Below are positions 1 to 62,097 of a stretch of 64,000 nt of DNA, piece by piece. The DNA is from Fodinicurvata sediminis DSM 21159 (GTDB lineage Bacteria; Pseudomonadota; Alphaproteobacteria; Kiloniellales; DSM-21159), in assembly GCF_000420625.1 (NCBI RefSeq), contig NZ_ATVH01000013.1, positions 62,001 to 126,000 of the forward strand, given 5' to 3'. The position numbers and the translations under genes were made by a program. Within the stretch, counting starts at the first letter, position 1; each line of letters begins with the position of its first letter. The notes under the pieces were generated by a model. That model saw nothing but the letters and a program-made list of their open reading frames with translations, was not told the DNA's origin and did not search any database.

Positions 1-1073
1 GCAAGAAGGCCGAGATGCTGGGAATCAAGCCCGAGAACATCTACATCGAGGACCTGCGCGAGGACTTCGTGCGCGACTATGTCTTCCCAATGTTCCGGGC
101 CAATGCGCTTTATGAAGGCCTCTACCTGCTGGGCACCTCGATTGCCCGCCCCCTGATCTCGAAACGTCAGATCGAGATCGCGCGTGAGACCGGCGCCGAT
201 GCCGCCGCTCATGGCGCCACCGGCAAGGGCAACGACCAGGTACGCTTCGAGCTGGCCTACTACGCGCTCAATCCCGACATCCATGTGATCGCGCCCTGGC
301 GCGAATGGGACCTCAATTCCCGCACAAAGCTGATTGACTTCGCCGAGAAACACCAGATTCCCATCGCCAAGGACAAGCGCGGTGAGGCCCCCTTCTCGGT
401 GGACGCCAACCTTCTGCACATCTCGGCCGAGGGCAAGGTTCTGGAAGACCCCTGGGAAGAGGCTCAGGAATACGTCTATTCCCGCAGCGTGTCCCCCGAG
501 GAGGCGCCCGATCAGCCCACCTACATCGAGGTCGAGTTCGAGAAGGGCGACCCCGTCGCCATCGACGGCCAGCGCCTCAGCCCGGCCGCCCTGCTGACCG
601 AACTCAACCGCCTGGGCGGCACCAACGGCATCGGCCGCCTGGACCTGGTGGAAAACCGCTTCGTCGGCATGAAGAGCCGCGGCGTCTACGAGACGCCAGG
701 CGGCACCGTCCTGCTGGCCGCCCACCGCGGCATAGAACAGCTCACCCTGGACCGGGGCGCGGCACACCTGAAGGACGAGATCATGCCGCGCTATGCCGAG
801 CTGATCTACAACGGCTTCTGGTTCTCACCCGAACGTGAGATGCTGCAGGCCCTGATCGATCGCAGCCAGGAGCATGTGAACGGCACCGTGCGCCTCAAGC
901 TCTACAAGGGCAGCGCCACCGTGGTCGGCCGCAAGTCACCCGACAGCCTCTACAGCATGGCGCACGTCACCTTCGAGGAAGACGACGTCTACGACCAGCG
1001 CGACGCCGAAGGCTTCATCAAGCTCAACGCCCTGCGCCTGCGCCTGCTGAAGCACAACGGCCAGCAAGGCTGA
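1..1073 (+). CDS. argG: Argininosuccinate synthase, 5' end missing
   Basis: This enzyme joins citrulline and aspartate, using ATP, to make argininosuccinate in arginine biosynthesis. It acts in the cytoplasm as a homotetramer. The frame is already open at base 3, so the true start lies before the window. About 356 codons are visible of a family length near 400-405, so roughly 45 residues with the N-terminal ATP loop are missing. The [13 protein letters not shown] block, which contacts ATP and aspartate, is clear, and the protein aligns with the family to its C-terminus. A strong hairpin terminator follows 22 bases after the stop codon. Identification is secure from the conserved blocks. The other arginine gene seen here, argB, lies 55 kb away. 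Confidence 0.97.
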
Positions 1074-39244: not shown

Positions 39245-39742
39245 CTATTCAAACTCACTGTTCTTAATCCTGGGCGTCTCGTGAACCCCAAGCCCTCTTC
39301 GGGACTGATGACGAACTGAAGCCCCCTCAGCGGTTGGCACGGGCCAGATCCAGTCATAGACCCAGTTAAAGACGAAGGCGTAGATCATGTAAAAGAGGGC
39401 AAAGGCGGCATCCATGTAGAATGCCTGCACCAGCGAGACCCCGAGATAGATCGCGATAAAGGGCATCAGGACCAGCAGCAGGCCAAACTCGAAGAGCACG
39501 GCATGGACGATTCGCACCGGCAAGGTTTTCTGCACCCTGCCAATAAGACGGAGCATCGCGTGGTCGAACAGCAGGTTGTAGATGTAGTTCCAGGCCGTGG
39601 CGAGCGTGGCGCTCACCAGGCTGACCATGCCGATGTCATGCAGGGGCATCCCGAACGTCCAGGCGCCCAGCGGCGTGACGATCAGCAGGCCGATAATTTC
39701 AAAGCTGAGCGCATGGCGGATGCGATCACGGGTGGTCCGCAT
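39245..39742 (-). CDS. PACE-family multidrug efflux transporter
   Basis: This 165-residue protein has four membrane spans in two pairs, the layout of proteobacterial antimicrobial compound efflux (PACE/AceI) transporters. Signature segments are RIRHALSFEIIGLLIVTPL, with the membrane glutamate at position 15, and the second copy RIVHAVLFEFGLLLVLMPF. AWNYIYNLLFDHAML lies between them. These transporters export chlorhexidine and similar cationic compounds or, naturally, polyamines. The C-terminal tail beyond residue 140 is extra and polar. The gene stands alone, 250 bases from the next gene on the same strand. Confidence 0.93.
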   Translation of the reverse strand: MRTTRDRIRHALSFEIIGLLIVTPLGAWTFGMPLHDIGMVSLVSATLATAWNYIYNLLFDHAMLRLIGRVQKTLPVRIVHAVLFEFGLLLVLMPFIAIYLGVSLVQAFYMDAAFALFYMIYAFVFNWVYDWIWPVPTAEGASVRHQSRRGLGVHETPRIKNSEFE

Positions 39743-39992: not shown

Positions 39993-40478
39993 TCACCCCT
40001 TCAAGATGAGTACCACCACCTGCAACACCACGACCCCCAGAGCCAGGAAGAGGCCCATGTGGTGCAAGGTTGCAAGCTGCCCCAGACCGCGACGCACCAC
40101 CTCGATATCTCCTTCGGAGTCTGCGCGCTCCACGGCGGCGATGCGCCCGGACAATTGGCTAAGCAGATATCCCAGGCCCAGCAAAAGGAACACCAGCACC
40201 AACAGAGTGGGCCAGGCGAAGTCCAATTGCCAGACTTGAAGCAGCAGCAGGAGTGTTCCCGACGCCATCGTGGTCTTCATCGTCGGCGGTAGCAGGCGAA
40301 TCACCCGCTTCAACTGCGCATGAACAAGGCGGGCTTCGCCATCGTCCACGCACGCGCTCAGGGGATCTCTCATGAGGCACCAGACAGCTTTCTCGATATA
40401 GGAAAGCGTCAGGAAGATCCCGCAGGCGAACGCAAAACAGGACGTTGCCAGGGCCGTGATGATCGTGGCCATGCTCAT
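39993..40478 (-). CDS. Small four-span membrane protein, operon partner of the glutaredoxin fusion
   Basis: This 161-residue protein has four hydrophobic spans: about 5-30 (LATSCFAFACGIFLTL), 72-92, 93-112 and 140-160 at the end. A charged cytoplasmic loop (DSEGDIEVVRRGLGQL) lies between the last two. I do not recognise a named family with confidence. The ATG at 40478 overlaps the TGA of the upstream glutaredoxin/AhpD gene (ATGA), so translation is coupled. It may work with that redox protein at the membrane. The open frame extends upstream, but only inside the neighbouring gene. Function is unknown. Confidence 0.82.
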   Translation of the reverse strand: MSMATIITALATSCFAFACGIFLTLSYIEKAVWCLMRDPLSACVDDGEARLVHAQLKRVIRLLPPTMKTTMASGTLLLLLQVWQLDFAWPTLLVLVFLLLGLGYLLSQLSGRIAAVERADSEGDIEVVRRGLGQLATLHHMGLFLALGVVVLQVVVLILKG

Positions 40479-42154
40479 CTGGCTCCGTCGACCTCGGACC
40501 GCGAGGCCCTGCCACGCGTTAGCGCAGGATCCGGATAGCGCAGGCACAGCGTATCCGACTCCAGAGCGTGCTCTTGAAGATAGGCGCTGACCTCAGGCTC
40601 CATGACCGGCTTCGTGATCGCCGCGAAGCGTTGAACGAGGCCCGCAACCGAGCAGACCGTGATCAGCTGGACCAGTTCGCGCGCGGTATAGGCCTGGATC
40701 GCCGGTTCAATGAAACGGCGCGGCGTTGTCAGGGGCGATTGTGCGGACAGCCAGGCCAGGGTCAGGGCGGCACCCTCCTGTTCGGTGAAGCAGTCTTCAC
40801 CGACTTTCCGCTGTTTTGCGGCCTCGAAACAATGCCGCACCCGCTCCACGGCCTGCTGCGTCTGTCCGGCCACCTGACAGGCCATCCAGCCTTCCACCGC
40901 CGCAAGATATTCGTGGCCCTTGGCAATGGCCGAGACCCGCGCCATCAGATGCTTGAGCTCGGACGGAATGGAAGAATGCGCCCGGGGCTGCATCATCTCG
41001 GCATAGAAAAGCGCGTGCCGAGCACGCAGGTCTTCCGGCCAGGCTTTCATCCATGATGGCAGAAGGCCGAGTTCCTGCATGGCATAGCGCTCGACACCAC
41101 CGGCCTTGGCGACAACGCCGTCACAGGCGGCAAGCATGTCCTCGAGGCTGGGACCGCCTTCGGACAAGGGGTGATCCAGATTGCCATAGGCGGAGTGCGT
41201 GCTGACGGCATGGCGTCCAGGCTCGATACCGGCCCGTGACTGCGCCTGCCCGGCCCATTCCCGCTCCACGTCCACGCCTGTCAGGTCATTGAAGACGTTC
41301 AGGAAACCGAAGGCCGAGGTCACCATCGCCGTGGCCATGACGGCGTCCTCTGGATTCGTAGCGGACTCACGCGCCTGCGAAGCCAGGGAGCGAATTTCCT
41401 CCAGGAGAAGGGTTGGGACAGCGTTGCGTGCTGCCTCCGCGGCCAGTTCTGTCAGCGCGAGTTCGTAGACTCCCATTTCCGCATTGTCCCCCGCCTTTCC
41501 ACTCCGTACCTGCTGCATGAGTGCCGGAAGGCCAAGCGAGGTCTCGCCCCCGGCCGCTGTCATATGGATCCGGCAGTAGTTGCAGCCATGCGCATCGGAG
41601 GTGGCAAAGCCTGTGGCCATCATCATCCGTTCCCCAAGAACCTCCCGCCCGAAACGGATGGCGCCGAGGTTGTGGGCATAGACGAACAGCTTGTAGGCCT
41701 CGGGCCAGTGATGCATGAAGCGGAAGCAGTTCGGCCAGAACCCGAAGAAACTCTTGTAGAAGTGCAGAATGGGCCATTGCTCGGGATCATCGCTTCTGGT
41801 GCCGTCGCTTTCCGGAATGATCCTGCTCAGGGGCAGGTCCTCTGTCCCGGCCTCCAGTTCCGCGTCCGACAGCCTTTCCGTATCCGGCTGCTCCTCCGCG
41901 CAGGCAATCAGCCGGTCGAGCCGTCCGGCCTCCGCGAGTGCCTGAAGATCCTCCGAGCCATTGATGTGAAGATCGCCAACAAGAATCTGGGGCACCGTGG
42001 CGACACCGGTCAGGTAGACGCTGAGCGCCGCCGTTCGCCGGGCGCTGGTGATATCGCATTCCGCAAAGCGATGCCCCCTTTCCTCGAGTGTTATCTTGGC
42101 TGCCGCGCAAAAGGGGCAGGCGGGCTTCGTGAAGAGTTTTATCGTTTCAGGCAT
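40475..42154 (-). CDS. Glutaredoxin-AhpD-AhpD fusion protein
   Basis: This 559-residue protein fuses three parts. Residues 1-85 form a glutaredoxin domain with CPFC (Cys13 and Cys16) and the cis-proline loop VATVPQIL. Residues 130-330 form a carboxymuconolactone decarboxylase/AhpD-like domain with HGCNYCRIH at 189-197, giving a CXXC pair. Residues 350-545 look like a second AhpD-like domain whose CXXC is lost, with the segment HEYLAAVEGWMACQ in its place. The order suggests an electron relay from glutaredoxin to an alkyl hydroperoxidase-type site. The start at 42154 follows GAGAGTGGGAA. The frame is open further upstream, across the divergent LysR start. The downstream membrane protein gene overlaps it by four bases. 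Confidence 0.88.
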   Translation of the reverse strand: MPETIKLFTKPACPFCAAAKITLEERGHRFAECDITSARRTAALSVYLTGVATVPQILVGDLHINGSEDLQALAEAGRLDRLIACAEEQPDTERLSDAELEAGTEDLPLSRIIPESDGTRSDDPEQWPILHFYKSFFGFWPNCFRFMHHWPEAYKLFVYAHNLGAIRFGREVLGERMMMATGFATSDAHGCNYCRIHMTAAGGETSLGLPALMQQVRSGKAGDNAEMGVYELALTELAAEAARNAVPTLLLEEIRSLASQARESATNPEDAVMATAMVTSAFGFLNVFNDLTGVDVEREWAGQAQSRAGIEPGRHAVSTHSAYGNLDHPLSEGGPSLEDMLAACDGVVAKAGGVERYAMQELGLLPSWMKAWPEDLRARHALFYAEMMQPRAHSSIPSELKHLMARVSAIAKGHEYLAAVEGWMACQVAGQTQQAVERVRHCFEAAKQRKVGEDCFTEQEGAALTLAWLSAQSPLTTPRRFIEPAIQAYTARELVQLITVCSVAGLVQRFAAITKPVMEPEVSAYLQEHALESDTLCLRYPDPALTRGRASRSEVDGAR

Positions 42155-42229: not shown

Positions 42230-42254
42230 GAACAAATCGTTCCAGAAACGGAAC
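42230..42254. promoter_or_regulatory. Nested inverted repeats in the LysR/glutaredoxin-fusion promoter region
   Basis: GAAC-AAATC-GTTC at 42230-42242 and GTTCC-AGAAAC-GGAAC at 42239-42254 share the half-site GTTC. They lie just before the LysR start at 42261 in a divergent region of about 106 bases. This is a plausible binding site for the LysR regulator. Confidence 0.5.
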
Positions 42255-42260
42255 AATCCA

Positions 42261-43211
42261 ATGAATGACTTCGACCTGAATGACCTGCGCCTCTTTGGCC
42301 TCATCGCCAGTACGGAGGGTCTCAGTTCCGCATCACGCAGGTTCGGGATTCCCAAGGCGAGTCTCTCGCGCGCGTTGCACAGGCTCGAGCAGGCGGCGGG
42401 CGCCCCCTTGTTCGACCGTGTGAACAGGGGCCTGCGCCTGACTCCGCTTGGAACCAGCCTGCTGCCCACGGCCGAAGCGGCCGTCTCCCTGATGCTGGAT
42501 GCCGATGAAGCCCTGCGGGTCAGCAAGGAGGAACCTCAAGGTCCTTTGAGGATTGCCGTCAGCGCCCTGTCCGGACAGACGCTCCTGGCGCCGGTGATTG
42601 CCCGCCTGGCCAGGAACCATCCGAAAGTCAGGACCGAGTTGAAGATCACCAGTCGCGGCCCGGATCCCGTCGCCGAACAGCTTGACGTCGTCATCCGTAT
42701 CGGCCGTCCGAGCGAGCCCTATCTGGTCTCGCGGCGCATCATCGGTTCCCCCTTGGCATTGTATACCCTTCGCGCGCAAACTCGCGATGGTGCCCTCGAG
42801 TGTCCGGAGGACGTGGAGGCCTTGGGACGAATCGTCACCAATGTGGACGACGTGGCTCGGGATTGGGTGCTCAGGAACCGAAAAGGCCATGAGATTCGCA
42901 TGACGCGCGAACCCCTGATCGTGCTCAGCGATCCCTCCGTTGCCCTGAGCCTGCTCAGTGCCGGAACGGGGGTGGCGCTCCTGCCCCGATTATATGCCGA
43001 TCCGCTCGTGCGCGATGGCACTCTGGTCCGCGCCTTGTCCGACTACACGGGACCGGAGGTGGAACTCTATGCCTCCCTTCCGCCCCGGCGCAGCAGCGTT
43101 CCGGCCGTTCGCGCCTTTCTCGACCTGCTGGTTCAGCACACGGCCCGCCTGGAGCGTGCCTGGCACTCCGAGGATCTTCCCGAAGCGGACCTTCCGAGAA
43201 AGAGCCCATGA
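42261..43211 (+). CDS. LysR-family transcriptional regulator
   Basis: This 316-residue protein has an N-terminal LysR helix-turn-helix (about residues 5-64, DLRLFGLIASTEGLSSASRR then FGIPKASLSRALHRLEQ) and a periplasmic-binding-like effector domain to the end. The ATG at 42261 gives the family N-terminus. An upstream ATG at 42192 would cover the operator region. It is divergent from the glutaredoxin/AhpD fusion gene, which it probably regulates, with inverted repeats between them. The effector is unknown. It may be a redox signal, as in OxyR, but no OxyR-like pair of reactive cysteines was identified; the only cysteine seen is in ALECPEDV. Confidence 0.92.
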   Translation: MNDFDLNDLRLFGLIASTEGLSSASRRFGIPKASLSRALHRLEQAAGAPLFDRVNRGLRLTPLGTSLLPTAEAAVSLMLDADEALRVSKEEPQGPLRIAVSALSGQTLLAPVIARLARNHPKVRTELKITSRGPDPVAEQLDVVIRIGRPSEPYLVSRRIIGSPLALYTLRAQTRDGALECPEDVEALGRIVTNVDDVARDWVLRNRKGHEIRMTREPLIVLSDPSVALSLLSAGTGVALLPRLYADPLVRDGTLVRALSDYTGPEVELYASLPPRRSSVPAVRAFLDLLVQHTARLERAWHSEDLPEADLPRKSP

Positions 43212-43278: not shown

Positions 43279-44283
43279 TCAGAGCCTATCCAGTCCAAGG
43301 TCCCCGGCCTGGGTAAAGAAGCTCGGCACCCCGCCCGTATGGATCAGGCAGGTGGGAGAGTCCGACGCGATCTCGCCGCGTTCGATCAGGTCGAGGGCGC
43401 CGGCGAAGGTCTTGGCCGTGTACGTCGCCTCCAGCAGCATGCCCTCGAGGGCGGCCACGGTTTGCAGGGCGGCTACCGCCTCTGGCGTGGGAATGTCATA
43501 GCCCGCGCCGAGATAGCGCTCGTGATATCGCACGAAGGAGGCCGGCTTCACGGAAGGTGTCACGCCGGTGTGCGCGCAGAGACACGAGAACAGGTCCTCC
43601 ACCAGATAGGCCAGCCTGTCGATCCCGTACTCCACGCTCACCAGGTGCACGCGGAAGGGCGCGCCCGCGAGGGCACAGCCGAACAGGAATCCGGCCTCAG
43701 TCGGCCCCATGGATCCCGGCAGGATCACGTTCTCCAGCGCCGCTTCCTGCTCTCCGGCCTGCACGATCAGCTCCGCGGCACAGGCCACGTAGCCGAGCGC
43801 GCCGACGACCGGATCACCGACGATATAGCATCGATATCCCGAGGCCTCCATCTGCTCCGCGAGCTCGGCCAGACGGCGGCTGCGTTCGTCCTCTTCCATC
43901 GGTCCCAGGAACCTGGTTTCGGCGCCGTAGAGGCGGGACAGCAGCAGATTCCCTTCCGCTCTTTCCGGCGGGTCGTCGTTGTGGAGCACGATGCACCGCA
44001 GGCCGCATTTCGCGGCCGCCGCAGCCGTTAAGCGGCATTGGTTGGATGTCCTCCTGCCGGCCACCAGCAGCGTATCGGCCTGCCGGACCAGGGCTTCGCC
44101 GAGCCAGAATTCCAGACTGCGCAGCTTGTTGCCGCCCATCCCCAGCGCCATGCAGTCGTCACGTTTCGCATAGAGGCCGTGGTGTCCGACGTGGGCGGCC
44201 AGCCGGTCGAGCCGTTCCAGCGGCGTGGGCCCGGGCACCAGCCGATAGCGCGGTAGGCCCGAGAGAGCGGTTTCCACCGGCAT
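43279..44283 (-). CDS. PLP-dependent D-cysteine desulfhydrase/ACC deaminase-family enzyme, divergent
   Basis: This 334-residue fold-type II PLP enzyme is related to D-cysteine desulfhydrase and ACC deaminase. The PLP lysine is Lys53 in MALGMGGNKLRSLEFW. The next catalytic segment reads RRTSNQCRLTAAA, with Gln82 where the family usually has histidine after Ser-Asn. The phosphate loop reads LPGSMGPTEAG instead of the usual SGSGGTxAG. The substrate may therefore differ. It is the last gene after four ABC transporter genes on the same strand, with 19 bases to the permease. This recalls the cystine-uptake and dcyD arrangement of enterobacteria and suggests the enzyme acts on the imported amino acid. 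Confidence 0.82.
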   Translation of the reverse strand: MPVETALSGLPRYRLVPGPTPLERLDRLAAHVGHHGLYAKRDDCMALGMGGNKLRSLEFWLGEALVRQADTLLVAGRRTSNQCRLTAAAAAKCGLRCIVLHNDDPPERAEGNLLLSRLYGAETRFLGPMEEDERSRRLAELAEQMEASGYRCYIVGDPVVGALGYVACAAELIVQAGEQEAALENVILPGSMGPTEAGFLFGCALAGAPFRVHLVSVEYGIDRLAYLVEDLFSCLCAHTGVTPSVKPASFVRYHERYLGAGYDIPTPEAVAALQTVAALEGMLLEATYTAKTFAGALDLIERGEIASDSPTCLIHTGGVPSFFTQAGDLGLDRL

Positions 44284-44302
44284 TAATCTTCCCCTTGCGG
44301 AA

Positions 44303-44986
44303 TTAGCGCATCTTCAGGGTCACGCCACCGATCCGCTTCTCGGCCCAATCCGCGAACTTCAGGACCGGATAGCAATAGACGAAGTACAGAGCGGCAACAC
44401 AGACATAGATCAGCATCAGATCGCCCGGAAAGCGCAAGGAGGCAATTTGGCCCTGCCGAGTCAGTTCCGATAGTCCCACGACGGACAGGATGGCCGTGCT
44501 CTTGATGATGATCACGAAGACCCCACTCATGGGGGGAATGATCATGCGCAGCGCCTGGGGCAGCACGACGTACCAGAGGGACTGTGCCTTGGTCATGCCG
44601 ACCGCCCGTGCCGCCTCGTCCTGGCCTTTCGGCAGCGCGGCGATCGCACTGTTGACGATCTCGGTAACGTAGCTGCCGGTATAAAGGCACAGGGTGATCA
44701 CCGCCGCCTGCATGGAATCGAACTGTAGCCAGGCCACACCGAGCTCGGGCAACAAATAATAGAAGATATAGAGCTGCACCAGGAAGGGAGAGCCGCGGAA
44801 CAGGTGAATGTACAGCCCGATCAACGCCGTCAACCCCGGGATGCGCAGACTGCGGAAGGTCCCCAGCACCAGGCCGATTAGCGAACCGACGACAATACCG
44901 ATGATGGTGATCCGGAAGGTCAGCCACAGCCCCTCGAGCAGGAAGGGCGTGATGCTCTGAATCATCTGTATCTGGTCCTGAAACAT
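44303..44986 (-). CDS. Amino acid ABC transporter permease, HisM/GlnP type
   Basis: This inner-membrane subunit forms part of the channel of a polar amino-acid importer. The 227-residue protein has about five spans, starting after a short N-terminus (LLEGLWLTFRITIIGIVVGS). The ATPase-contact loop near residues 140-165 contains EAARAVGMTKAQSLWYVVLPQA, the EAA motif of the His/Glu/Gln permease family. It follows the other permease gene with 12 bases between them and precedes the PLP enzyme gene by 19. Two different permeases of similar size indicate a heterodimer, the normal arrangement for this class. Confidence 0.93.
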   Translation of the reverse strand: MFQDQIQMIQSITPFLLEGLWLTFRITIIGIVVGSLIGLVLGTFRSLRIPGLTALIGLYIHLFRGSPFLVQLYIFYYLLPELGVAWLQFDSMQAAVITLCLYTGSYVTEIVNSAIAALPKGQDEAARAVGMTKAQSLWYVVLPQALRMIIPPMSGVFVIIIKSTAILSVVGLSELTRQGQIASLRFPGDLMLIYVCVAALYFVYCYPVLKFADWAEKRIGGVTLKMR

Positions 44987-44998
44987 CCTGCTCTCCCC

Positions 44999-45691
44999 TT
45001 ACGCCGGCTGATACCGGCCGCCGTGCAAGCGCCGCTGCACGACATTGGATAGAACGAGCATGCCTGCGTATATGAGCAGATAGCAGACAGCGACGGTCAG
45101 CAGGCCCTCGTTCGGCATGACGTTCTCGTGCATCACGGTAAGGCCGGCTCGCATGAGCTCGAAGACCGCGATCAGGCTCAGTAGTGAGGTGTCCTTGATC
45201 AATACTGCGGTTTGTCCGAGCAGTGTGGGAATCACGTTGGCGAAGGCCTGCGGCAGGATGATCAGCACCATGCGCTGATGGCGTTTCAGACCCAGGGCAG
45301 TGGCGGCCTCGTGCTGGCCTGGGTCAACGGACTGGATGCCCGACCTGATGATCTCGGCCATGTAGGGCGTCGTGTGAAGCGTAAGCGCAATGATGCCCGA
45401 GACGGTCTCCGTCAGGATCCCGACATTGCCGAACAGCTCCGGCAGGCCGTAGTAGACCAGGTAGATCTGCACCAGCAGGGGGGTGGCGCGTATGAACTGT
45501 ATATACGCAGCCGCTGGCCGCCACAGCAGGCCCGTCTTCGACATGCGCAAACCGGCAAGCAGGACCCCGAGGGCAATCGAAAGGACAAGACAGACCGCGC
45601 TGAGCCAAAGCGTCGCCCAGATACCCTGCAGGAAGGTATCGGCATAGTTCAGCACCACGCGCAGGTTATAGAATTGGGCGATATATTCCAT
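44999..45691 (-). CDS. Amino acid ABC transporter permease, HisQ/GlnP type
   Basis: This is the second channel subunit of the importer, with 230 residues. It has the N-terminal TLWLSAVCLVLSIALGVLLAG span and further spans to the C-terminus. The cytoplasmic EAA loop is EAATALGLKRHQRMVLIILP. The segment YIQFIRATPLLVQIYLVYYG is typical of the family. The start at 45691 has only a weak AAGG element. It is separated from the upstream binding-protein gene by 139 bases that hold two strong hairpins, so its expression is probably lower. The following permease gene starts 12 bases after its stop. Confidence 0.93.
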   Translation of the reverse strand: MEYIAQFYNLRVVLNYADTFLQGIWATLWLSAVCLVLSIALGVLLAGLRMSKTGLLWRPAAAYIQFIRATPLLVQIYLVYYGLPELFGNVGILTETVSGIIALTLHTTPYMAEIIRSGIQSVDPGQHEAATALGLKRHQRMVLIILPQAFANVIPTLLGQTAVLIKDTSLLSLIAVFELMRAGLTVMHENVMPNEGLLTVAVCYLLIYAGMLVLSNVVQRRLHGGRYQPA

Positions 45692-45711
45692 CGATGGTCG
45701 GCCTTACAGAA

Positions 45712-45782
45712 GCGGGAGCGCGCTCGCGCGAACGCACTCCCGCCAATGTCACGGATGGCCTGCTGGTTATCGCAGGCCATCC
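45712..45782 (-). promoter_or_regulatory. Tandem intercistronic hairpins between binding-protein and permease genes
   Basis: Two inverted repeats follow the binding-protein gene. One is a perfect 11-bp stem, 45753-45763 with 45772-45782, enclosing 8 bases. The other is a stem of 7 bp, one mismatch and 3 more bp, at 45712-45722 with 45733-45743. Neither has a U-tract. They are likely mRNA-stabilising or partly terminating structures that raise binding-protein yield above permease yield. Confidence 0.65.
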
Positions 45783-45830
45783 CGCATCATGACTTGCGTG
45801 ACCTCGATCCTGAGGGATGGCAAGCCCGGA

Positions 45831-46631
45831 TCAGTGATCCTCCTCCCAATCCTGGGAGTTCCACCAGTAATCGAGAAGCTCACCCAGTTGGCCGGAATGC
45901 TCGGTGAAGCGGATGTAGTTGTCCATGAACATCAGCAAGTGGACCGAATCCGGCCGCGTCGCAAAGCTCAGCGGCTCCTTGCGCAGGGTCCCCTCGAGCA
46001 CCTCGAATTCTGGGTAGTCCTCCAGGAATGCCTTGATGGTGCCGCTGTCGCTGATGCCCGCATCGACACGCCCCGAGGACACGGCCTGGGCGGTGGCCGC
46101 GGTGCCACCCTGATACTCCTTCATGGTCAGGTCCGGCAGCTTGATGTCCGCGGCCGCTGCATAGGTGCTCGCCTCCGGGGCGCCGATCGTGGCGCCTTCC
46201 TGCTTGAGATCTTCCCAGTGCGAGTAGCCCTTGTCCTCATTCGCGAACGCAATAATCTCCGTGAAGAAGATCGGCTCGGTGAACAGCAGCTGCGTGGCGC
46301 GCTTGGGTGTCGGCGTCATGTCAGCCGCAATCAGGTCCGCCTTTCCTGACAACAGCGCGGGAATCAGGCCCTGCCAGCTGTAATCCTGCAGCTCGAGCTC
46401 GACACCCATGTCCTCGGCCATGTTGCGAACGATCTCGACGGCAAGGCCCGCACGCTCCCCATTGGCATCGACGAAGCTGATGGGTGGACCTTGCGTCTGG
46501 ACCGCGACACGCAAGGTGCCGCGTTCCATGATGTCTTCCATCGTGGTCGCACTGGCTGTAGCGGCGGTGCCGAACACGACAAGGAATGCCATGGCCGGCA
46601 ATGCTCGTAACAGTCTCATCAAGGTAGTCAT
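45831..46631 (-). CDS. Periplasmic amino acid-binding protein of the ABC transporter
   Basis: This 266-residue precursor has a signal peptide (residues 1-28, AMAFLVVFGTAATASA). The mature family 3 solute-binding protein has GTLRVAVQTQGPPISFVDANG at its N-terminus, then YSWQGLIPALLSGKADLIAA with the ligand-contacting region, and a late VSSGRVDAGISDSG block. This group binds polar amino acids such as cystine, glutamine or histidine, but the exact ligand cannot be read. The ATG at 46631 follows GGAGAAGGGGAGAA, a very strong ribosome binding site. It lies between the ATPase gene (20 bases upstream) and the permease genes, after which two hairpins follow. Confidence 0.93.
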   Translation of the reverse strand: MTTLMRLLRALPAMAFLVVFGTAATASATTMEDIMERGTLRVAVQTQGPPISFVDANGERAGLAVEIVRNMAEDMGVELELQDYSWQGLIPALLSGKADLIAADMTPTPKRATQLLFTEPIFFTEIIAFANEDKGYSHWEDLKQEGATIGAPEASTYAAAADIKLPDLTMKEYQGGTAATAQAVSSGRVDAGISDSGTIKAFLEDYPEFEVLEGTLRKEPLSFATRPDSVHLLMFMDNYIRFTEHSGQLGELLDYWWNSQDWEEDH

Positions 46632-60729: not shown

Positions 60730-61435
60730 ATGTCGCCGGTGGGCAATGTCCGGACAGACCTGCTCACGAAACACTCACTGGGCCGAAGACTGCGGTTGCG
60801 GTTTCGAGGAAGGCTCTGCCTGCGATGTCCTGTCCCGGGAGTGGTACGAGCACGCCCGCAGATGCCTGTCTTCGATAGCGCGCAGCTGGATGCCCGGCCT
60901 GCCCGACTGCATCTTCTTTCGCTACGCGGGACTGCGTGTGGCCGTGCTTCATGCCACGCACAAGGCCAACAACAGCTTCGTGTTTCATTCCACACCAGGC
61001 CATGAAAAGCAGAAAACTCTCCAGGCACTGCAGTGTGACCTGGTCATAAGCGGCCATAGTGGACTGCCTTTCACCCAGCAGCTCGACAGTGGCATCTGGC
61101 ATAACTCCGGCGTTATCGGCATGCCGGCCAACGATGGATCGACCAGCACCTGGTACGCATTGCTCGAGGCGGACGGAAACGGACTGCGCATCGAGCACCA
61201 TCGGCTGACTTATGACCATCAGGAAGCAGCCAACCGGATGCTGTCGGTCGGACTGTCCGAAGCCTATGCCCGAACCCTGGAAACCGGCTTGTGGCCAAGC
61301 CTGGACGTTCTTCCCGAAAGAGAACTCAGTGATACCGGACAGTTCCTGCGACCCGTCTCGCAGGACCCGCATGAACCCGGTTTCATCTTCCGGCCCGGCG
61401 CACTCTCTCAAGCGGCAGGACTCACGCAATCGTGA
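60730..61435 (+). pseudogene. Metallophosphoesterase remnant, 5' truncated and probably frameshifted
   Basis: The C-terminal part of a calcineurin-like (YfcE-type) phosphoesterase is recognisable: [16 protein letters not shown], then ISGHSGLPFT and HNSGVIGMPANDGSTSTWYA. The N-terminal half, with the GDxH and first metal ligands, is absent. The frame runs back into rpmH antisense sequence, which is not family-like. Just upstream, the segment [16 protein letters not shown] in a different frame resembles the GN block expected before DCGCGF. A frameshift near 60785 together with loss of the 5' half is therefore suspected. The remnant precedes an AhpD-like gene by 92 bases. Confidence 0.6.
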
Positions 61436-61527
61436 ACGTCAAGTGTCTTCAAGTTTCCAACCATTGCTTCCCACCTCGTAGCAGAAGCCAGATCACTGGA
61501 AACTCGACACTCGAAGGAGAAACAAGC

Positions 61528-62097
61528 ATGACAAAACCAAGCAACGGCTTTCAGATCCACACGCCGGAAGATGCACCGGAAGAGTCCCGCGAAACCCTCA
61601 ACAACATTGCCCAGGCCTATGGCTTCGTCCCGAATATTCTGGGCATAGCAGCTGAGTCGCCGGCGGCGCTCAAGGCCTATGCCACGCTCAACAGCCTGTT
61701 CAAGGAACAAGGATCCTTCTCCAAAACCGAATCGGAGATCGTGCTGCTGCTCATCAGTGCCTATCATGGCTGCGGCTATTGCGTCGCGGTGCACAGCACG
61801 GGTGCTGAGCGTTCAGGCGTGGATGCGGACACCGTGGAAGCGTTGCGGCAGGGTAAGGAGCTTCCCGATCCCAAGCTTCAGGCATTGGCTGTCTTCACCC
61901 GCCGCATGATCGATACCCGTGGGTGGCTCGAGGAAAGCGATATCCAGGCCTTTCTGGATGCCGGCTATTCACGGCGCCATATCCTGGACCTGATTACGGC
62001 TCTGGCGATGAAGACCATTTCCAACTACACGAACCACATTGCGGATACTCCTCTGGATGACGCCTTTAGCAAGAAGGCTTGGCAGAAGGCCAGCTGA
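61528..62097 (+). CDS. Carboxymuconolactone decarboxylase/AhpD-like protein
   Basis: This 189-residue helical protein belongs to the CMD/AhpD superfamily, whose members reduce peroxides or act as decarboxylases. The catalytic pair is in SAYHGCGYCVAVHSTGAERSG (CGYC near residue 86). The N-terminal ETLNNIAQAYGFVPNILGIA and the C-terminal segment TALAMKTISNYTNHIADTPL match the peroxidase-related group. The ATG at 61528 follows GAAGGAGAAACAAGC. A hairpin follows the gene. It is the second AhpD-type protein in the window, after the glutaredoxin fusion. Its electron donor is unknown. Confidence 0.92.
   Translation: MTKPSNGFQIHTPEDAPEESRETLNNIAQAYGFVPNILGIAAESPAALKAYATLNSLFKEQGSFSKTESEIVLLLISAYHGCGYCVAVHSTGAERSGVDADTVEALRQGKELPDPKLQALAVFTRRMIDTRGWLEESDIQAFLDAGYSRRHILDLITALAMKTISNYTNHIADTPLDDAFSKKAWQKAS

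Follow-up and report, generated by a model that had tools for sequence, protein, structure and literature searches.

Within a window of 64,000 nucleotides from Fodinicurvata sediminis DSM 21159, the whole stretch of DNA analysed here, one gene joins a glutaredoxin to two AhpD-like domains. It is flanked by genes for a small membrane protein and a LysR-type regulator. The question raised by this locus is what the fusion protein reduces and what reduces the fusion protein. The first-pass annotation had suggested a self-contained, glutathione-driven peroxidase or thiol relay.

Architecture of the fusion protein

The features of the locus are compiled in Table 1. The first-pass annotation had described the protein as a glutaredoxin with CPFC, an AhpD domain with a CXXC motif and a second AhpD-like domain deprived of this motif, and its coordinates and motifs were found to be correct. 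The glutaredoxin part belongs to Pfam family PF00462 (E-value 4.6e-12; 46.4 bits, compared to a cut-off of 22.9) and contains the CPxC motif. At the spot where the second CXXC would be expected, at residue 413, the sequence reads GHEYLAA (HEYL). Searches of the window protein with the AhpD/CMD profiles of Pfam, including PF02627, yielded zero matches at E-values up to 1; among members of the fusion family, CMD (PF02627) matched weakly in 5 of 20 (best E-value 3.5e-4). When the two AhpD parts were compared with each other by hhalign, the alignments were in register and nearly of full length, and the P-values of 0.06 and 0.16 were not significant. As a control, the first AhpD domain was compared with the glutaredoxin, which gave a P-value of 0.0038 for a stretch of 47 columns surrounding the CXXC. 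Elsewhere in the window (positions 61432-62097, plus strand) an ordinary single-domain AhpD-like protein is encoded, which has the motif HGCGYCVAVH and a glutamate at position -12.

Table 1. Coordinates of the fusion gene, its parts and its neighbours (nucleotide positions in the window; residues for protein parts)
Feature	Position	Strand	Size	Remarks
Glutaredoxin-AhpD-AhpD fusion	40475..42154	-	559 aa	
Fusion, glutaredoxin part	residues ~1-88			CPFC 13-16
Fusion, first AhpD domain (AhpD-1)	residues ~106-312			CNYC 191-194, His197
Fusion, second AhpD domain (AhpD-2)	residues ~336-530			CXXC lost; conserved Cys501
Membrane protein	39993..40478	-	161 aa	start overlaps stop of fusion gene, ATGA
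LysR-type regulator	42261..43211	+	316 aa	from likely ATG; longer ORF from 42192
Palindrome CGTTCC-N6-GGAACG	42238..42255		18 bp	between divergent genes; presumed LysR operator

Distribution of the fusion gene

Species genomes were scanned with two exact peptide patterns, which gave 134 pattern matches and revealed 21 other loci with the fusion, 13 of them alphaproteobacterial, 6 cyanobacterial and 2 from Bacillaceae; owing to the exact patterns this number is a lower bound. As these loci encode the same protein with 39-61% identity (92% in Fodinicurvata fenggangensis), the fusion is, judging by the sequences, no chance reading frame. The nearest relative found is the F. fenggangensis locus L064, which is 92-93% identical over the AhpD part. 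In this species (L005/L064), a one-base deletion splits the glutaredoxin frame from the remaining fusion, which may be a real frameshift or a sequencing error. All 21 loci carry the glutaredoxin part: BLAST detected it in frame with the rest of the fusion in 19 of them, L064 has it in the shifted frame, and in the Bacillaceae locus L081 only the profile revealed it.

In the phylogenetic tree, the Alphaproteobacteria formed one side of a branch with support values of 100/100. The two Bacillaceae sequences were sisters (100/100) on a long branch, which was placed among the cyanobacteria without support, and an AU test of a single cyanobacterial clade gave a p-value of 0.41. Since Martelella, a Rhodospirillaceae MAG and Aquisalinus, members of three alphaproteobacterial families, grouped together (100/99), the tree suggests that lateral transfer took place within this class. 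The gene is rare and its occurrence patchy. In the class, at least 2 of 289 genomes (among the matches listed) contained a full-length fusion, as did 4 of 390 in the order to which genome G352 belongs and 3 of 12 in the family. Plasmid records contained 126 matches, none of which covered more than 80% of the query; the best 30 of the 126 were all confined to residues 1-84, i.e. to the glutaredoxin.

The predicted structure resembles sestrin2

An AlphaFold model of the fusion, calculated with 22 aligned homologs, reached a mean pLDDT of 91.7 and a pTM of 0.93. The structure most similar to this model in VIA-align was human sestrin2 (5t0n_D) with a Z-score of 20.8 and an rmsd of 3.3. The alignment comprised 275 residues (model residues 114-517; 11% identity) and spanned both lobes. 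It was followed by Bmp8 (Z 14.2; 183 residues, model residues 107-309) and by glutaredoxins (Z up to 12.7). Single AhpD-type structures matched the model over residues ~104-311 and 272-527. The latter region, which was aligned with 6k40 at a Z-score of 11.3, comprises lobe 2 plus one helix that belongs to the end of lobe 1. Because of these matches to 272-527, the predicted structure bears out the assumption that the third part of the protein has an AhpD-type fold. Foldseek ranked Bmp8 first and did not return a sestrin among its best 50 rows.

Human sestrin2 (PDB 5t0n, 5dj4) likewise possesses two AhpD lobes per chain, an active N-terminal and a degenerate C-terminal one. By contrast, it has only one catalytic cysteine and lacks a glutaredoxin, it is eukaryotic, binds GATOR2 and contains a hinge with DDYDY in the second lobe (PMC4674687, PMC11429811). 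Lobe-2 features including this hinge are what defines sestrins in the latter (PMC11429811). In the model of the fusion, lobe 2 retains the helices 398-411 and 415-428 as a helix-turn-helix, and a search of its sequence for DDYDY was negative. The Pfam sestrin profile PA26 (PF04636) exceeded its cut-off in none of the 22 genomes. Ten weak matches were listed; seven of the eight that were examined contained the ordinary AhpD motif and one had none, and no match was traced to a fusion. Since the sestrin profile misses the fusion family, the likeness is, as far as the model goes, one of shape and order and not of proven descent. Is the fusion then a bacterial relative or even a forerunner of sestrin, rather than a look-alike? 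The high Z-score across both lobes and the sestrin-like order, active lobe first and degenerate lobe second, would speak for it. On the other hand, the profile and Foldseek results and the missing sestrin-defining features argue against kinship, and an AhpD dimer fused in silico is also reported to resemble sestrin (PMC11429811). Common descent is hence most improbable.

Tandem AhpD proteins are not new in bacteria. YciW and proteins of Corynebacterium ureicelerivorans and Comamonas aquatica are treated as sestrin analogues in a review of 2024 (PMC11429811). They share the fused AhpD pair and, in C. ureicelerivorans and Comamonas aquatica, the loss of the cysteines from one lobe. However, in these two species the cysteine lobe is the C-terminal one, the reverse of the fusion, and the available text of the review mentions no glutaredoxin for them (PMC11429811). 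The fusion has the lobe order of sestrin and, in addition, a glutaredoxin. The first-pass annotation knew of no description of such an operon, and in the listed literature on AhpD, sestrins, Bmp8 and bacterial deiodinases, at the level of titles and opening abstracts, no description of a glutaredoxin-AhpD-AhpD fusion was found. Another protein with a built-in reductant is the peroxiredoxin-glutaredoxin hybrid HI0572 of Haemophilus influenzae (PDB 1nm3), in which a glutaredoxin is also fused to a thiol oxidoreductase. Unlike in the fusion, the glutaredoxin of this hybrid lies at the C-terminus (match 169-237 of 241) and is joined to a peroxiredoxin.

The active site resembles that of Bmp8

The residues C191, Y193, C194 and His197 are invariant in all 22 sequences of the fusion alignment, and Cys501, the third cysteine, located in lobe 2, is invariant in all 21 that reach this position. 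Compared to classical AhpD peroxidases, the CXXC is present in 22/22 sequences, while glutamate at position -12 (counted from C191) and histidine at +4 (counted from C194) are absent. Position -12 is Met179 in the window protein and is occupied by Met, Ser, Phe, Asn, Ile, Cys, Tyr or Gly across the 22 sequences, never by Glu. The histidine is always found at +3, one residue nearer to the cysteines than in classical AhpD. Ordinary AhpD proteins with C-x-[YF]-C from the same set of genomes had Glu at -12 and His at +4 in 8 of 8 cases (L001, L002 and L103, which have no such motif, were left out of this comparison). The same two residues occupy positions -12 and +4 in the AhpD or peroxidase-related proteins 2prr and 6k40, which share the AhpD fold and the CXXC but contain only one AhpD domain per chain.

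A different picture emerged for Bmp8 (PDB 6ohi, 6ohj), a marine debrominase. Read by eye, its sequence in the alignments is GCMYCKSH, which places the histidine at +3, and position -12 is occupied by Trp. Thus, the AhpD fold, the pattern GC-x-YC-xx-H and the lack of Glu at -12 are common to Bmp8 and the fusion, although Bmp8 is a chain of 195 residues with a single AhpD domain and neither glutaredoxin nor second lobe. The value of this pattern as a debrominase mark would derive from a single enzyme, and the identity between the fusion and Bmp8 is only 16-23%. The two-lobe profile A4 gave Bmp8 as its best PDB match (E-value 2.4e-9). With the first AhpD domain alone, however, 2prr (6.3e-6) came out slightly ahead of Bmp8 (1.1e-5). 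Bmp8 acts in the pathway of pentabromopseudilin, and a mechanism with disulfide formation has been proposed for its dehalogenation reaction (PMC5577590).

The glutaredoxin cysteines and glutathione

Of the 21 aligned sequences that hold the glutaredoxin part, 19 have kept its CXXC. The exceptions are the two Bacillaceae, L079 and L081, which have H..S and E..S instead. In 20 of the 22 genomes, glutathione synthetase was matched with 229-256 bits, compared to 34 and 44 bits in the genomes of L079 and L081. This contrast rests on the score, since ATP-grasp relatives pass the Pfam cut-off of GSH-S_ATP and all 22 genomes are positive by it. The co-loss of the cysteines and of a strong synthetase match in both genomes is, on the tree, to be regarded as one evolutionary event. 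It lends support to the idea that glutathione drives the enzyme. Because both Bacillaceae proteins keep the AhpD dithiol in the absence of the glutaredoxin cysteines, the glutaredoxin is not essential in all hosts.

In Jannaschia (L073), a gene for a glutathione-reductase-like protein is located 3′ of the fusion gene on the same strand, separated by 72 bases. Its score of 408.8 bits is below the NCBIfam cut-off of 480, and an intact copy was found in only one of the 21 loci. Damaged reductase-like genes lie 3′ of the fusion in two further loci, one lacking most of the first 87 residues (L068), the other being a 73-residue N-terminal piece (L074). The description of the system as self-contained is therefore unproven.

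A conserved LysR gene and a palindrome in the shared promoter

The divergent orientation of the LysR gene, noted at first reading, was correct, and the likely start is the ATG given in Table 1. It is also a conserved neighbour. In a search whose query began after the first methionine, an ortholog (43-97% identity) was detected in 13 of 22 genomes including the window's; in 12 of these it lies next to the fusion. Eleven of these 12 copies are divergent, the one in L075 is located downstream. In genome G356 (L077), the ortholog lies elsewhere and a different LysR gene precedes the fusion. The Oscillatoria LysR (L072:4668-5618, minus strand) is ~61% identical to the regulator of the window although the fusions are only ~45-49% identical, which may reflect a transfer of the regulator across phyla. 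Beyond the LysR gene, positions 43279-46631 (minus strand) of the window encode a PLP-dependent enzyme (PF00291) beside ORFs which resemble, by eye, a polar amino-acid ABC transporter.

The palindrome was present 74-89 bases before the fusion start in all 11 promoters with a divergent LysR gene, with 0-3 mismatches each. The mismatches added up to 13, whereas in 500 shuffles their sum averaged 49.7 and never fell below 40. This test is not independent since the motif had been read by eye in the same sequences that were scored. The 11 other loci showed 3-5 mismatches each, L075 being the best promoter without a divergent LysR gene. L074, with three mismatches, does not stand out because other loci reach 3-5 as well. 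At five loci (L070, L079, L080, L081 and L082), a divergent TetR gene takes the upstream place of LysR. Other palindromes were seen by eye in four of these promoters: TGACCGAACGGTTCGGTCA between the TetR gene and the fusion in L080 and L082 (one mismatch in L082), and repeated AAACGGAA / TTCCGTTT-like sites in L079 and L081.

The membrane protein and its two partners

The overlap of the fusion and the membrane protein gene, which had been reported before, comprises four bases. Four membrane spans had been assigned to this protein; this number is plausible, with three to four hydrophobic peaks in nine homologs and an all-helical, weak model (pLDDT 73), yet it is unproven. Fold searches with the weak model mostly found helical bundles (best Z 12.0). 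No convincing family was identified in Pfam or NCBIfam. A relation to HemJ (UPF0093) was considered and rejected: Pfam matches were weak only (best E-value 0.0054; two of six members), and hhalign gave a P-value of 0.16 against 10 HemJ sequences taken from 15 loci examined and of 0.24 for a reversed-sequence control, values that mean little for this protein since a comparison with its own reverse gave 0.0096. Directly downstream of the membrane gene, a PACE-type chlorhexidine efflux transporter (PF05232; E-value 5e-47) is encoded at positions 39245-39742 (minus strand), which was not seen at the corresponding place in F. fenggangensis.

Apart from the window, the membrane protein occurs in 8 of 21 fusion genomes. 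In seven of them, its gene lies directly 3′ of the fusion and has the same orientation (one of these fusion genes is split across two contig ends). The expectation that it is a conserved neighbour was thus borne out for a third of the other genomes (7/21) and not for the remaining 14, which makes it an optional partner. In the eighth genome (G353) and at five further loci, which come from four of the 390 genomes sampled in the order to which G352 belongs, the membrane gene is found directly 5′ of a gene for a T4_deiodinase-family protein (6/6). The protein of L109, the one copy that was scanned, matched PF00837 with 61.7 bits (cut-off 27), and the other copies are 82-90% identical to it. It also weakly matched AhpC-TSA (E-value 1.1e-5) and Redoxin (7.6e-5). 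At all six loci (L109 and L117-L121), the set consists of a TetR gene, called by Pfam for L109 and by eye for the others, and the divergent genes of the membrane protein and the deiodinase-family protein; L121 contains an in-frame stop. The 21 neighbourhoods of the fusion yielded no relative of the deiodinase-family protein. Each of the 14 copies of the membrane protein, including that of the window, therefore adjoins one of two unrelated thiol enzymes.

Discussion

Taken together, we favour the reading that the fusion is a one-chain, glutathione-driven thiol reductase of a small hydrophobic electrophile, to which we assign a probability of about 0.6. Glutathione would reduce the N-terminal glutaredoxin at Cys13/Cys16, which in turn would reduce the CNYC disulfide of AhpD-1. 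The CNYC dithiol, together with Tyr193 and His197, would then reduce the electrophile, presumably an organic hydroperoxide or an organohalide, and end as a disulfide. AhpD-2, whose active site is lost, would be a pseudo-partner of AhpD-1 as in sestrin. A LysR regulator, or TetR elsewhere, would control the fusion gene from a palindrome in the shared promoter. Where it occurs, the membrane protein probably assists the enzyme at the membrane. Of this picture, the architecture, the motifs, the neighbours, the palindrome and the co-loss with glutathione synthesis are borne out by sequence or model, whereas the electron flow, the substrate, the regulation and the part played by the membrane protein are inferred.

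As regards the substrate, the first reading as a peroxidase was not supported as it had been written, because the classical relay glutamate is absent and the histidine is shifted as in Bmp8. Nevertheless, peroxidase activity of the fusion is possible. AhpD-1 might act as an alkyl hydroperoxide reductase that reduces organic hydroperoxides directly with glutathione, comparable to sestrin2 with DTT. This tentative but quite conceivable reading agrees with the AhpD fold with its CXXC, and sestrin2, the closest overall structure, is reported to reduce cumene hydroperoxide and not H2O2 (PMC4674687). It is at odds with the position of the histidine and with the replacement of the relay residue at -12, which is Glu in 2prr and His113 in sestrin2, in all 22 sequences. 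A thiol relay, the other function initially considered, would mean that the AhpD dithiol hands its electrons to a partner protein, e.g. a peroxiredoxin, as in the AhpD-AhpC system of Mycobacterium tuberculosis. The AhpD precedent (PMC11429811) and the separate redox modules within one chain are consistent with it. However, among those fusion neighbours that were assigned to families, a set to which many neighbours do not belong, there was no peroxiredoxin, and we consider a relay rather improbable.

Reductive dehalogenation, by which the CNYC site would remove Br, I or Cl from an organohalide like Bmp8 and the glutaredoxin would reset the resulting disulfide, is possible though somewhat doubtful. 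It accords with the site shared with Bmp8, from which all eight ordinary AhpD proteins compared differ, with the top position of Bmp8 among single-domain folds and in the A4 search, and with the other partner of the membrane protein. The disulfide in which Bmp8 is proposed to end could be reset by a fused glutaredoxin. The habitats would also fit, since the organism names hint at mostly marine or saline sources. On the other hand, the low identity to Bmp8 and the narrow lead of 2prr with the first domain alone weaken the comparison. Moreover, the deiodinase-family protein may be peroxiredoxin-like because it also matches AhpC-TSA and Redoxin, and bacterial deiodinase-like proteins are considered likely to differ in function from their animal counterparts (PMC1088965), which weakens the case for dehalogenation further. 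With the Bmp8-type site and with a deiodinase-family protein as the alternative partner of the membrane protein, dehalogenation gains more weight than a first reading would give it; the precedents of AhpD and sestrin point to hydroperoxides. The most far-reaching version would be a so far undescribed reductive dehalogenase of bacteria from saline habitats, powered by glutathione, with a Bmp8-type site on a sestrin-shaped scaffold, its own glutaredoxin to recharge it and a membrane partner that serves the fusion or, elsewhere, a deiodinase-family protein. In this complete form, we regard it as unlikely.

For the favoured thiol reductase, the attached glutaredoxin hints at the electron donor of an enzyme with sestrin shape, and the niche of the antioxidant function of sestrins is described as not yet fully understood (PMC11429811). 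If the substrate is an organohalide, AhpD-type and deiodinase-type chemistry would be linked via one shared membrane protein, and a glutathione-driven dehalogenase would be added whose promoter and presumed operator are at hand. Even as a peroxidase, the fusion would be an unusual enzyme, which carries its own thiol recharging chain within one protein.
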